NCBI GenBank assembly: GCA_027297205.1
Contig: JAPUIH010000028.1
Location: forward strand, 1-32,112
Length of the DNA stretch: 32,112 nucleotides
Origin: SAR324 cluster bacterium
Lineage (GTDB): Bacteria > SAR324 > JACQKK01
Direction: 5' to 3'
Of the stretch, positions 6,842 to 15,110 are shown one piece after another; position 1 is the stretch's first letter; each line of letters starts with the position of its first letter. Below the pieces are notes generated by a model, which was not told the origin of the DNA, ran no database searches, and was given only the letters and a program-made list of their open reading frames with translations. Made by a program: the position numbers and the translations under genes.

Positions 6842-7387
6842 CTACTGTTTTTCCTGAATTTGCTTGACGAACATTTCGCGGGAAAGCACGTAGACCAGAT
6901 ATCCGTTGACACGCGGGGAGAACTTTGCGCGCACCAGGTATTTGTATTCCATGAAGTTGGAATCCGTTTCTTCCAACACGCATTCCACCACGATCACATC
7001 CAGGGCCACCATGCTCAGGGCGCTCATTAGCACGTTGGTGCCCGGTTCGAAATAAGTGTCGGAGTGAAATGCCAGCCCGCTCACGGAAATGTCGAGAATG
7101 GGGAATGCCTGCGGGCCGATATGGGCATAGATATTAACGTCCTTATCGTGGTCGAAGCGGTAACGGGGCTCGGTGCGCCGTTCGTCAATACCAGGCGGGG
7201 CCTGGGCCGCCTTCAACGCTTCCATTTCTCCAAGCACGTCCTCGTCTGGATTGATGCTTTGCAGTTCGGATTTAAGTGAGTCGTACTCCTCTTTCCAGCG
7301 TCCTCTTTCTTGTTCTTCATTCCAGACTTTACCTTCTCCATCGCTGGAAAAGTTGTCCTCTTTATTGTGATCGCCCATCGGGTTCAT
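6842..7387 (-). CDS. PilZ-domain protein with N-terminal helical segment
   Basis: IDERRTEPRYRFDHDKDVNIYA...PILDISVSGLAFHSD resembles the PilZ RxxxR ... DxSxxG signature. Confidence 0.75.
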   Translation of the reverse strand: MNPMGDHNKEDNFSSDGEGKVWNEEQERGRWKEEYDSLKSELQSINPDEDVLGEMEALKAAQAPPGIDERRTEPRYRFDHDKDVNIYAHIGPQAFPILDISVSGLAFHSDTYFEPGTNVLMSALSMVALDVIVVECVLEETDSNFMEYKYLVRAKFSPRVNGYLVYVLSREMFVKQIQEKQ

Positions 7388-7554
7388 TCTCCCTGATTCC
7401 CCATAAATAGGTAACCGGTGCGGTAATGCTGGAATGCAGACTTCCTGCACCAATAGCACTAACGGGAGCATATTTCCACTCCGCCACTATTCGGCGGGGA
7501 GGCGTTAACGTCCTAATGCGCGCTTTGCAGGGGCCGGTGGCGCACCATTTGCTC

Positions 7555-8508
7555 TCACAATTTCAGTTCGGCCAGCAGGTTTCTCCAGCCTGCAATTTCC
7601 CGGGATGGCTGGAACATGGGGGCCAGCCTAGCCATGTGCCGCTGCAGCGCTCTCAAGAAGGCAGCATCGTCTTCGGCGCGCGTCAGCAGTTCCCGCAGTT
7701 CTCCCGTGTCACCCACCCTGAAATAACCAGGATAGCTGTCACCCAGCAGGCCCACCGTGCCTGGAATTTTCGAGGCCAGGACGGGCAATCCCGCGGCGCC
7801 CGCCTCCGAGATCACATTCGCGCCACCTTCCATGCGGGAAGACAGCACCATCAACCTGCATGCGGCCAGCAGCCTCCGTACCCGCCAACGGGGCAATTCC
7901 CCCAGCCAGCTGTAACGGGAATTCGTCTGCGCTTCCCGTTTGGCCTTGCGTTCCATCTGCGGATTTAGGGCTTTCCCTGCGTGCAGCACGCGGATGCGTG
8001 AAGAGGCGGGCAATCCCCGCACGGCCATTGCGGCCCGGAACGGGTCTTTCTCCTCGCGCAAATGGCCGACCACACACACTGGAAAGCCCGTGTGCGGGGG
8101 CTTGACCCCTGCTGGAGGGGCCTGGGCAGATTGCACAATCACGCGCAGTTTACCCCGCACCGCGCGGGGCAACTCGCGGCTGGCCAAGGGCTGCAGGGCA
8201 ACCAACCGGGTGGCCATCCGCAACGACGCCCGGGCCTCCTCGCTGTTTTGCATGTCCCTGTACAGATCGGTGCCTGTCAAGGCCAGCACCAGCGGCGCCC
8301 TGGGATAGTGATCCCGGTAGGCGCGCAAGGCGGCATGACTGCGCCGGGCGTGGAGGGCGATCATCAGATCGCAGCGCTGGGCGTCATAGGTCTGGGCCAG
8401 GGTCACACGATGGCCCAGACCCTCCAGGATGCCGCGCCAGCGGAGGGCCGTAACCCGGTTGCCATGACGGGTGCGGGGCGGGGCGGGCGTAATCATGATG
8501 ATTTTCAT
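7555..8508 (-). CDS. senB: TIGR04348-like glycosyltransferase; candidate selenosugar synthase SenB
   Basis: MKIIMITPAPPRTRHGNRVTALRWRGILEGLGHRV...YDAQRCDLMIALHARRSHAALRAYRDHYP...LALTGTDLYRD...SSRMEGGANVISEAGAAGLPVLASKIPG; immediately downstream of an EgtB/SenA-like gene. Confidence 0.83.
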   Translation of the reverse strand: MKIIMITPAPPRTRHGNRVTALRWRGILEGLGHRVTLAQTYDAQRCDLMIALHARRSHAALRAYRDHYPRAPLVLALTGTDLYRDMQNSEEARASLRMATRLVALQPLASRELPRAVRGKLRVIVQSAQAPPAGVKPPHTGFPVCVVGHLREEKDPFRAAMAVRGLPASSRIRVLHAGKALNPQMERKAKREAQTNSRYSWLGELPRWRVRRLLAACRLMVLSSRMEGGANVISEAGAAGLPVLASKIPGTVGLLGDSYPGYFRVGDTGELRELLTRAEDDAAFLRALQRHMARLAPMFQPSREIAGWRNLLAELKL

Positions 8509-8590
8509 GGAGCGTGCCCTGGACGAGGAAACCGCCCCGCTGGCGGGGCTGAGAGGGAGCCGGAATGACTGGGCACGGGTCTGGCCGCCG

Positions 8591-9916
8591 CTACTGGGAG
8601 CAGGTGCGGAATCCGGCGAACACGTCGCTCCGATCCGGCATGAAGAAATTGCGCCAGGTGTTGCGTATCATGCGGGAGCGGGTGGCCCAGCTGCCGCCTC
8701 GCAGCACTTTGTGATACCCAAACCAGGGTGCGGAATACTCCCGGTAGGGATCGACCACAAAGCCGGGATAGGGATAGAAGGCGTCGGCGGTCCATTCCCA
8801 CACATTACCCAGCATTTGCCGGCAGCCATGGGCGCTATCTCCATCCGGCAAGGCCGCTACGTCCGCCGGTGCGGTGGAATGACAATCCAGGTTGGCGTGT
8901 TGGGGTGTGGGCGCCGCATCACCCCAGGGATAGCGGCGCTTTTCGCCAAGCAGGGAGCCGTTGGCGGCGGGCACCGTGGCCGCGGCCAGCTCCCACTCGG
9001 CCTCTGTGGGCAGTCTGCGTCCGGCCCAATTGCAATAGGCCTCCGCTTCAAACCAGTTGACGTGCAGCGCCGGCTGATGCTCCCGTATCGGCTCCCAGCG
9101 GTCGAAGCGGCGGCAGCGCCAGCCGCCCCCCCTGCCGGGACGCCAGTAAACTGGGTGCTTCGCGCGGGAATTGCCCAGCCAGAGCCGGCCCCGGATGCTC
9201 CAGAATTGTTCGCTGCGGTAACCCCCCGCTTCCACGAACTGAGCAAATTCGCCATTGGTGACAGCTGCGCGGGCGATGTGGAACGGCGCTACGTCCACGG
9301 GATGCGCCCATTTCTCGTTGTCGAAAACGTAGGGCATGTCCTGGCTGCCGCCCAGCATATAGCCTTGCGCGCCGGGCACCTCCACATCGCCCGGCAAGGG
9401 CCCCGCCGGTTCCGCTTCCGGCGGCGGTTCCACAGCCCTGGCCTGCAAGGTTGGAGCGGAATAGCGCTGGGTCTGGCGGTCATGGATCATGGCCTCGTCG
9501 TGCATGTCCTCATGAAACACAGACAGCCTGTTGTAGTAAGTGGCCTCCTCACCAAGTGCCGTGTCGCGCACGGTCTCCAACACGTTCTCCAATACCTCCG
9601 CCGCATAAGCGAGCGTACTTTCCCGCCCGGGCATGGCAAGGTCCCAGCGGATTTCGTGGGCCACTTCAAAGGAATCGTAGAGTGCGTCCACCTCCGGCCG
9701 CAAGGTGGGACGTCCGTTCAGGTGGCGCAGCACCCATCTTTCCTGGAACCAGGCGATATGGCCTACGTGCCAGATCATGGGATTTACCGTGGCCACTATT
9801 TTCCCAAGCAACTGTTCATCGGTCAGGTCTTCCACCAAATGGAAAGTGAAGTCCCGAGCGTCGCGCACCCAACGCGTCAGTTCCTCTTCCGCCGCGGCTT
9901 TGCAGGCCAAATCCAT
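8591..9916 (-). CDS. senA: EgtB-like DinB + formylglycine-generating-enzyme domain protein; candidate selenoneine synthase SenA
   Basis: DinB part NPMIWHVGHIAWFQERW and FHEDMHDEAM (HxxxH metal motif); FGE part LPTEAEWELAAAT...MLGNVWEWTADAFYPYPGF...KVLRGGSWATRSRMIRNTWRNFFMPDRSDVFAGFRTC. Start MDLACKAAAEEEL at 9916 preferred; the ORF extends to 9994. Confidence 0.83.
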   Translation of the reverse strand: MDLACKAAAEEELTRWVRDARDFTFHLVEDLTDEQLLGKIVATVNPMIWHVGHIAWFQERWVLRHLNGRPTLRPEVDALYDSFEVAHEIRWDLAMPGRESTLAYAAEVLENVLETVRDTALGEEATYYNRLSVFHEDMHDEAMIHDRQTQRYSAPTLQARAVEPPPEAEPAGPLPGDVEVPGAQGYMLGGSQDMPYVFDNEKWAHPVDVAPFHIARAAVTNGEFAQFVEAGGYRSEQFWSIRGRLWLGNSRAKHPVYWRPGRGGGWRCRRFDRWEPIREHQPALHVNWFEAEAYCNWAGRRLPTEAEWELAAATVPAANGSLLGEKRRYPWGDAAPTPQHANLDCHSTAPADVAALPDGDSAHGCRQMLGNVWEWTADAFYPYPGFVVDPYREYSAPWFGYHKVLRGGSWATRSRMIRNTWRNFFMPDRSDVFAGFRTCSQ

Positions 9917-10009
9917 CGGTATTCCATCCTGCGGGATCCAGGGGCGCCCCGTGGCGGGTTTCGCCAAAAGTTTCGTGGCCGGGCGGAGCACCACCCGTAC
10001 CGCCGCTTA

Positions 10010-11386
10010 TTACAAAGGTTTCAGATCACCCAGCAAAGTTGGCAGGAGTTCCGAAACCGTGGGATGGATGTGTACCGCGCGGGTCACCGTCGTATAGGGC
10101 GCCTTGGCATACATCAGATCCAGCAGGGAGTGGGCTATCTCGTCGCCCCCGATACCCAGCAAGGCCGCACCCAGTATCTCCTTACTCTCCGCATCCACCA
10201 CCACTTTCATAAAGCCCTGGGTTTCGCCGCGTTCCCGGGCACGGGCCACTCGCTCCATCTGCATTGTCCCCACCAGGGCCTTGCGTCCCGATTCCCGCAC
10301 CTGCTGCTCCGTCATGCCGGCCCGCCCCAGCGGGGGGTCGATAAAAAGACCGTAGCAGATGATGCGGTCCGCCACGCTGCGCGGGTCGTTGTCGAACAGA
10401 TTGGCCGCCACGATCTCATAATCGTTGTAGGAAGTATGGGTAAAAGCGCCCAGGCCATTGCAATCTCCGATGGCCCAGATGCCTTCTACGTTGGTGCGCA
10501 ACTGGTTGTCCACCGTGATCATTCCCTGGGGATTGGTGGCCACCCCGGCCTTGTCGAGGCCGAGGTCATCGGTATTGGGGCGGCGTCCTACGGCAACCAG
10601 CAGATGGGAGCCGGCAAGGTCTTCCTCGCCGCCCGCGCCATTCAGTTTGACCGAAATGCCGCCGCTCTGCTGCCCGGCTTCCGCCAGGGTGGTGTCAAGC
10701 CGGATGTCGATGCCCTCATTTTCCAGTATTTTCTTGATGGCATCGGAGATATCTTCATCTTCCCGTGGGATCAGGCGGGGTCCTTGTTCCACCACCGTTA
10801 CCTTGCTCCCGAAGCGCCGGTATATCTGGGAGAATTCCAGGCCGATATAGCTGCCGCCGAGCACAATCAGGTGCTCGGGCACCGCTTCCAATTCCAGCAT
10901 GCTGGAGTTGGTGAGGTACTTGATACTGTCCAGACCTGGCACCGGCGGCACCATGGCCCGCGCACCCACGTTAATGAAAATCTTATCAGCTTCGAGCACC
11001 TCTCCGTTCACACTTACCGTATTTGGGCTTTCCAGGCGGCCATGGCCCTGGAAAATCGTACCGTTGTCCAGATTCTTCATCCAGTTGGTGACGCCGGTGT
11101 TGGAACGCTCCACAATTTCGTCTTTGCGGGCCTTGACCCGCTTCATGTCCACCCGGATCGGCGAGTCGATCATGACGCCGAATTCCGCGCCTCGGTTGGC
11201 CATGTATGCTGCCCTGGCGCTAGCCACCAAGGTTTTTGTGGGAATTCAACCTGTATTGACACAGGTGCCGCCGAATTTATCTCTCTCGATGACAGCCACC
11301 TGCATGCCCTCCTGGCTCAGGCGGGATGCCAGAGAGGGGCCCGACTGGCCGGTGCCGATTACGATTGCGTCGAACTTGGTTGTCAT
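10010..11386 (-). CDS. Selenocysteine-containing FAD/NAD(P)-dependent pyridine nucleotide-disulfide oxidoreductase (mercuric reductase/dihydrolipoamide dehydrogenase superfamily); UGA at 11248-11246 read as Sec
   Basis: MTTKFDAIVIGTGQSGPSLASRLSQEGMQVAVIERDKFGGTCVNTG[TGA]IPTKTLVASARAAYMANRG... continues in the same frame to HIHPTVSELLPTLLGDLKPL. FAD GxGxxG motif, NAD motif VLGGSYIGLEFSQIYRRFGSKVTVVE, C-terminal HxxxxxE present. AAAGGAG ribosome-binding site before ATG 11386. ORF track shows only the part after the UGA. Confidence 0.86.
11212..11232 (-). promoter_or_regulatory. Candidate bacterial SECIS hairpin
   Basis: 5'-CCUUGGUG GCUAG CGCCAGGG-3': 8 contiguous pairs (two G.U), 5-nt apical loop starting with G, loop G 22 nt after the in-frame UGA. 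Confidence 0.72.
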
Positions 11387-11409
11387 ATTGCTCCTTTCTT
11401 CGCCCCTCA

Positions 11410-11435
11410 GGCCGGCTGCCTAGGCAGGACCGGCC
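11410..11435 (-). promoter_or_regulatory. 5'-leader hairpin of the Sec-reductase/sen cluster
   Basis: Minus strand GGCCGG-UC-CUGC-CUAG-GCAG-CCGGCC: 6-bp lower stem, 2-nt 5' bulge, 4-bp upper stem, 4-nt loop; 24 nt upstream of ATG 11386. Confidence 0.45.
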
Positions 11436-11790
11436 GGCGTGGCGGGGGCGCTTGTTGATCGATTCCCTTCCCCTGTCCGGTACCGGAGTTGAAGCACAAA
11501 TGAGGGTGCCGAACTGGAATTTGAGACGTTAAACTAATTTGATGCCGGTACAGTTACCACGAAATTTTTTGGAAGTCGCGGCTTTATTGACCCCATGGCG
11601 GACGGGACAGCACATGGCGCGGGTTGACCGGTGGCAGCACCCCCCGCGGCGTGGTTTGAGGGCCGAATTGCTTGTGTTCCAGGAGTATTACCTATATTAA
11701 TTTGAGTTCTGTAACCACAACCACGCCGCGCTGAATTCAAATCCGTGAGGCGATCAAAAAATACGGGCGGACTCTCCAGGATAGCCGGTT

Positions 11791-12579
11791 ATGCCCTCCA
11801 CAATCGCGTTTTCTAGCCAAAAGGGCGGTGTCGGAAAAACCACCTCCGCGGTAAATCTGGCCATGGCCTTTGCCGTGGGCGGCTACCGGGTATTGTTGAT
11901 TGACCTCGACCCGCAAGGGTCGGTGCGTTATTCCTTCGGCATCAAGGAGGCCGCTGAGCGTGGAACCCATCAACTGCTGACGGACCCTTCCGTGCCCCTG
12001 CGGGACCTGCGCATGTCCGCCGATGGACAGGGCCTGGATTATGTCCTGTCCAACATCGATACCCTGAAGCACGAGCGGGAACTGGCGGAGAAAATCGGAG
12101 ACCTGACCAGCCTCAAACGGCGGCTGGACGAGGAAGCCCAGGATTACGATTTTGTATTGCTGGATTCTCCACCATCCACAGGCATTCTGGCCCTTAATGC
12201 CATGACCGCCGCCGACTATGTAATTCTGCCCCTGCAATGCGAGTCGTTGGCCATCAAGTCCCTGAAGCGATTTCTGCACTCTTTCCGGGAATTGCAGATG
12301 ACCCACAACCCGGACCTGCGCATCGCCGGAATTCTGATGACCATGTACAACCGCCGCCTGGCCGTGCACCGCAAAATCTGCCGGCAAATGTACGAGACTT
12401 TGTTCGATTCCGTATTTTCCACCATCATTCCCCAGGCCAAGGAAATCGCCGAAGCCAGCGCCATAGGCCAATCGGTGATTACCTATAACGTCAATTCCAT
12501 TGGCGCAACGGCCTATATTCGGCTGGCCAAGGAGATGCTCGATCGCTTTGGGTTCAGGCCGGAACTTGCCGTCAAGTAA
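11791..12579 (+). CDS. ParA/Soj-family ATPase
   Basis: Deviant Walker A QKGGVGKTTSAVNLA, LLIDLDPQGS, DFVLLDSPPSTGILALNAMTAADYVILPLQCE. Confidence 0.92.
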   Translation: MPSTIAFSSQKGGVGKTTSAVNLAMAFAVGGYRVLLIDLDPQGSVRYSFGIKEAAERGTHQLLTDPSVPLRDLRMSADGQGLDYVLSNIDTLKHERELAEKIGDLTSLKRRLDEEAQDYDFVLLDSPPSTGILALNAMTAADYVILPLQCESLAIKSLKRFLHSFRELQMTHNPDLRIAGILMTMYNRRLAVHRKICRQMYETLFDSVFSTIIPQAKEIAEASAIGQSVITYNVNSIGATAYIRLAKEMLDRFGFRPELAVK

Positions 12580-12583
12580 CGCC

Positions 12584-13030
12584 ATGCGCGGCACCAGATC
12601 CCAGGGCAGGTCATTCGCCCTGCAACTGCTTTACCAAGCCGAAATGAATGAAGAATTGGCGGAGGCGTCCGCCAGCCGATTCTGGGAAGAGCAACATCCT
12701 TCCCGGAAGGCCAGAGCCTTTGCCGAGGCGTTGGTGGAAGCCACTCTGTCGCACATGTCCGAGATCGACGCCAGGCTGGGCAAGGAATTGGAGCATTGGA
12801 AGCTGGGCCGTCTCTCGGTTGTGGTGCGCAACCTGTTGCGTATGGCCGTGTGCGAGATGCTGGTGGTGGGTGAAGTGCCGTTTCCCGTGGTGATTGACGA
12901 ATCGGTGGAGTTGGCCCGTAGATTCATGGACGAGGAGTCCGCCCGATTCGTGAACAGTGTGCTGGAAAAATGCTGGATAAATGCATCCGCCGCTCAAGGC
13001 GGCGCGCCCGCATCCCAGGAGGGCGCCTAG
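12584..13030 (+). CDS. nusB: Transcription antitermination factor NusB
   Basis: MRGTRSQGRSFALQLLYQAEMN...LLRMAVCEMLVVGEVPFPVVIDESVELARRF...ARFVNSVLEK. Confidence 0.92.
   Translation: MRGTRSQGRSFALQLLYQAEMNEELAEASASRFWEEQHPSRKARAFAEALVEATLSHMSEIDARLGKELEHWKLGRLSVVVRNLLRMAVCEMLVVGEVPFPVVIDESVELARRFMDEESARFVNSVLEKCWINASAAQGGAPASQEGA

Positions 13031-13103: not shown

Positions 13104-15109
<2,006 letters not shown>

Positions 15110-15110
<1 letters not shown>

Follow-up and report, generated by a model that had tools for sequence, protein, structure and literature searches.

The DNA analysed here, a 32,112-nucleotide window from a SAR324 cluster bacterium, contains a disulfide reductase gene that is interrupted by a single in-frame UGA codon and that precedes the genes for selenoneine synthase (senA) and selenosugar synthase (senB). 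Based on its sequence and on the gene neighbourhoods of its relatives, we propose that this reductase, in which the UGA very likely specifies selenocysteine (Sec), may function as an NAD(P)H-dependent selenoneine/ergothioneine reductase, a substrate assignment that we consider to have about an even chance of being correct. In two other phyla, related reductases are encoded beside selenoneine or ergothioneine genes, an arrangement that points to a role in recycling these antioxidants. How selenoneine and ergothioneine are maintained in their reduced forms in bacteria appears unsettled, and a bacterial candidate with gene-neighbourhood support would make the question of their reduction testable.

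Organization of the locus and family assignments

The three genes are located on the minus strand in the order reductase, senA and senB, and the positions of the open reading frames (ORFs) confirm the coordinates and the 93- and 82-bp gaps reported in the first-pass annotation. The features of the locus are as follows.

6842..7471, minus strand: conserved ORF with no assigned function; a homolog directly follows the reductase in the relative G008
7555..8508, minus strand: senB, selenosugar synthase, 317 aa
8509..8590, no strand: senA-senB gap, 82 bp, containing a GC hairpin followed by a weak T tail
8591..9916, minus strand: senA, selenoneine synthase, 441 aa, in which an HEDMHDE segment (H-x3-H-x-E) is found
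9917..10009, no strand: reductase-senA gap, 93 bp
10010..11386, minus strand: predicted Sec-containing FAD/NAD(P)H disulfide reductase of the PRK06370 type, 458 aa, motif GGTCVNTGUIPTK
11212..11232, minus strand: SECIS-like hairpin with an 8-bp stem (CCUUGGUG/CGCCAGGG) and the loop GCUAG, its stem beginning 13 nt past the UGA
11246..11248, minus strand: UGA codon 47 of the reductase, read as selenocysteine, the only in-frame TGA in 458 codons
11391..11397, minus strand: Shine-Dalgarno-like sequence AAAGGAG preceding the reductase ATG
11737..12594, minus strand: conserved ORF upstream of the reductase, with no Pfam match, syntenic in G008
13116..15110, plus strand: ligA, a syntenic flank common to G008

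We infer that the reductase, senA and senB are co-transcribed. Scans for promoters and terminators revealed neither a consensus promoter nor a minus-strand terminator in the reductase-senA gap and gave no decisive sites, and the senA-senB gap, with its hairpin, folds no better than shuffled sequences. A GTG at position 9994 is an alternative open start for senA. Searches of the window against Rfam at the gathering threshold and for tRNAs returned no matches. On the opposite strand, an open frame of 995 codons spans the entire reductase-senA region (window 8471-11458, plus strand) and is probably a by-product of high G+C.

Both biosynthetic proteins exceed their curated cut-offs (SenA, 484.8 bits versus 420 for NF041186; SenB, 401.9 bits versus 300 for TIGR04348), and their solved-structure matches carry the names SenA/OvsA/EgtB and SenB, respectively. 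When read through its one UGA, the reductase is a full-length Pyr_redox enzyme that scores 767.4 bits against NF004992 (PRK06370; cut-off 629), a family for which we found no described function. Cys-form orthologs from this family are 53-70% identical to the window reductase and occur in Acidobacteriota, Planctomycetota, SAR324 and Pseudomonadota, in some cases beside senA or egtB; the window enzyme differs from them in having UGA/Sec in place of the second active-site cysteine. It falls short of the cut-offs for glutathione reductase (286.7 versus 480 bits for NF004776; 250 versus 606 bits for TIGR01424), both of which are exceeded by a different gene in the same genome. Because separate genes in the genome encode glutathione reductase, lipoamide dehydrogenase and transhydrogenase, the Sec-reductase need not fill those roles.

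Mercuric reductase (MerA) and the RclA/hypothiocyanite reductases share the superfamily and the CxxxxC site with the window enzyme and are among its better NCBIfam and PDB matches, but it scores below the curated cut-offs of both (334.9 versus 454 bits for MerA, TIGR02053; 364.9 versus 740 bits for RclA, NF040477). Its C-terminus ends in GDLKPL and lacks the cysteine pair found there in MerA. The best solved-structure match is 6kgy, which we take to be E. coli RclA, and the C-terminal HPTVSE segment of the reductase aligns with HPSMSE in that structure. This match favours an alternative in which the enzyme is a general reductase of small disulfides or oxidants (RclA/hypothiocyanite-reductase-like, or acting on another substrate) whose adjacency to senAB arose in this lineage and lacks functional meaning, whereas the size of the shortfall against the RclA cut-off speaks against it; the gene-neighbourhood evidence on this alternative is considered below.

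Probable selenocysteine at the flavin-proximal position

Within the motif GGTCVNTGUIPTK the first cysteine of the CxxxxC site is retained and the UGA occupies the position of the second, which is the flavin-proximal cysteine in the flavoprotein disulfide reductase superfamily. In the PRK06370 Cys homologs whose motif was read, the aligned residue is a conserved cysteine. The window genome encodes tRNA-Sec (61 bits) and SelB (360 bits), together with a SelD that has a UGA inside its own frame. A scan with the UGA-containing motif across 84,980 species genomes yielded 17 loci, of which three, from SAR324, Acidobacteria and Planctomycetota, are 60-71% identical to the window reductase. More distant homologs come from Nitrospirae, Rokubacteria and Ammoniphilus, and the remaining locus (L050, Nitrososphaerales) was dropped, its frame being broken after 84 codons in a genome with no SelB over the cut-off. 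In several phyla, full-length homologs carry the UGA at this very codon. Of the 16 genomes with UGA-motif loci, 14 encode a SelB that exceeds its cut-off and one more has a fragment. In a tree of the reductase family, the well-supported branches require the Sec label to have changed at least three times.

Hairpins following the UGA are more stable than synonymous recodings when the Sec genes are combined (p=8e-5, for sequences that are related and hence not independent), and this excess is not seen in 49 Cys-gene controls (p=0.21). The hairpin in the window, taken alone, reaches p=0.076 and is only suggestive of a SECIS element. Its weakness, together with the fragmentation of the assembly into 400 contigs, would favour reading the UGA as a true stop, in a pseudogene or through a sequencing error. 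We consider this very improbable and reject it, as the 458-codon frame is otherwise intact, the genome contains Sec machinery, and the same-codon UGA recurs in other genomes that encode SelB. The selenocysteine reading put forward in the first-pass annotation is therefore very likely on the basis of the encoded machinery and the comparison with relatives, and we infer that Sec is inserted at this codon in vivo.

The scan recovered Sec-containing CxxxxU disulfide reductases (L048-L064) in Nitrospirae (PRK06292-like), Rokubacteria and Ammoniphilus, in which the UGA is followed by hairpins such as AGACCUU-GGU-AAGGUCU; three of the Nitrospirae enzymes (L053, L060 and L062) have His-rich C-termini, for example EEKEHHHHHH. 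A 2026 inventory describes 119 prokaryotic selenoprotein families (PMC13188914); a Sec CxxxxU flavoprotein disulfide reductase is missing from this list, as the L048-L064 enzymes apparently are too, and we found none described in the open-access literature. Such reductases are unlisted, yet they recur across several phyla.

Gene neighbourhoods in SAR324 and other phyla

The Sec-reductase and senAB were seen side by side only in the window genome, and their neighbourhood is not conserved within SAR324. A relative from the same family (G008) has the gene order trkA-ligA-orf-Sec-reductase-orf found in the window, but senAB is missing between the reductase and the next ORF and is located on another contig; in two further SAR324 relatives (G001 and G005), too, senA and the reductase are on separate contigs. 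The shared order implies that senAB was either inserted in the window lineage or lost in G008, and the agreement of the flanks on both sides argues against a chimeric window contig.

Outside SAR324, linkage to senA or egtB recurs. We surveyed 396 Acidobacteriota genomes at E<=1e-150 and found the ortholog in 35, at 36 places, one of which contains the UGA. Genome G459 encodes senA and a Cys-form reductase separated by 33 bp, a Cys-form reductase is followed by egtB and egtD in G308 (a genome in which no SenA exceeded the cut-off), and in G310 egtD and an egtB-like gene face the reductase in a convergent arrangement. The reductase of the Planctomycetota genome G626 lies within 5.6 kb of senA-senB-egtD. 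Altogether, 4 of the 44 Acidobacteriota and Planctomycetota orthologs, all four of the Cys form, are located within 6 kb of senA/egtB, as compared to ~0.1 expected from assumed gene densities. For the other 40, and for five Pseudomonadota plasmid orthologs that were inspected, senA/egtB was not found within ~6 kb, with several flanks ending at contig ends.

Taking senA as the starting point, we found a reductase within ~2 kb at 4 of 25 loci (G459, G348, G414 and G390), where 0.3 to 0.6 would be expected by assumed density; some of these loci end at contig ends. In G348 a 46% identical homolog is the first gene of a co-directional run, reductase-egtB-senA-senB, and in G414 a divergent homolog (42% identical) lies near senA. 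The reductase beside senA in G390 is 30% identical and best fits glutathione reductase (below the cut-off), and was excluded as an ortholog. Viral contigs gave only weak and partial SenA matches; plasmid matches were few, and at the one inspected no reductase was listed beside SenA. In G459, a 292-residue ORF lies directly upstream of senA (L131:11163-12041) and has homologs near senA in L133 and L068.

The reductase and the biosynthetic genes also co-occur. EgtB/SenA is present in 28 of the 35 Acidobacteriota genomes with the ortholog versus 94 of the 361 without it (p=4e-10, uncorrected for phylogeny or genome size), and SenA alone in 6 of 35 versus 19 of 361 (p=0.016, likewise uncorrected for phylogeny). 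In the remaining 7 of the 35 genomes EgtB/SenA was not detected.

These data bear directly on the general-reductase alternative. Synteny in G008 in the absence of senAB and the large majority of orthologs unlinked to senA/egtB are what it would predict, but linkage that recurs in separate branches and in other phyla and co-occurrence with EgtB/SenA are not, and we rate it as a real, though lesser, possibility. The association between reductase and sen genes raised in the first-pass annotation consequently stands in part: several genomes from other phyla have a reductase that adjoins senA/egtB or is no more than 6 kb away, whereas in SAR324 (G008) the arrangement is not conserved. An absence of conservation across related genomes, which that annotation had envisaged as grounds for abandoning the association, is not what was found outside SAR324, given the recurrent linkage and co-occurrence.

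Proposed reaction and selenium supply

We propose that the window enzyme is a class I flavoprotein disulfide reductase with selenocysteine in its active site. NADH or NADPH would donate electrons to FAD, which would pass them to a Cys42-Sec47 selenenylsulfide pair, and from there they would reach a small disulfide or diselenide. Its likeliest substrate would be the oxidized product of the neighbouring genes, selenoneine diselenide, and for Cys-form relatives beside egtB it would likely be ergothioneine disulfide. The reductase would thereby restore reduced selenoneine or ergothioneine, a role comparable to that of glutathione reductase in glutathione recycling. Reduction of selenoneine by a selenoenzyme is chemically plausible by analogy, as both selenoneine diselenide and ergothioneine disulfide are direct substrates of the mammalian Sec-containing thioredoxin reductase, which reduces them in vitro, and replacing its Sec with Cys removes ~98-99% of the activity with ergothioneine (PMC8868364). 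In the open-access literature, this was the only enzyme for which we found direct action on oxidized selenoneine or ergothioneine. Like the predicted window enzyme, it is an NAD(P)H/FAD selenoenzyme of the disulfide reductase superfamily, but its Sec is near the C-terminus rather than in a flavin-proximal CxxxxU site, and the two are not close in sequence. Ergothioneine disulfide is also reduced by glutathione together with glutathione reductase, a system that could do the same job and so weakens the need for a Sec-reductase.

Another reading of the locus is that the reductase, instead of recycling selenoneine, acts on selenite, selenodiglutathione or a selenosugar intermediate and delivers selenium in reduced form to SelD or SenB. 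The enzyme adjoins senAB and is itself predicted to be a selenoprotein, as this reading would have it, but the Cys-form relative next to egtB-egtD in G308 accompanies a sulfur pathway that has no selenium step, and we regard a supply role as unlikely. Extending the recycling role to the family, PRK06370-type reductases may include a dedicated bacterial selenoneine/ergothioneine reductase whose flavin-proximal Cys has become Sec in several lineages, with the genome analysed here containing one selenium circuit of selenoenzyme, selenium substrate and shared SelD; we hold this broader proposal tentatively, at somewhat less than even odds.

As in the senA-senB-senC cluster, senA and senB in the window are co-directional, but here a Sec-reductase precedes senA and neither senC nor selD was found beside senA-senB at the locus. 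Only one SelD over the cut-off is encoded in the genome, on another contig (C365), which agrees with the absence of senC noted in the first-pass annotation and with its suggestion that a single SelD could feed both the Sec and selenosugar branches. In the relative G004 (contig C104, L068), senA, senB and a UGA-containing selD are clustered, a grouping that fits the idea of one SelD for both. The senB gene of G006 contains an in-frame TGA (L066:6681) that was considered as a further Sec codon and rejected; by-eye comparison places it at an arginine of the window SenB, and it is probably a mutation or sequencing error.
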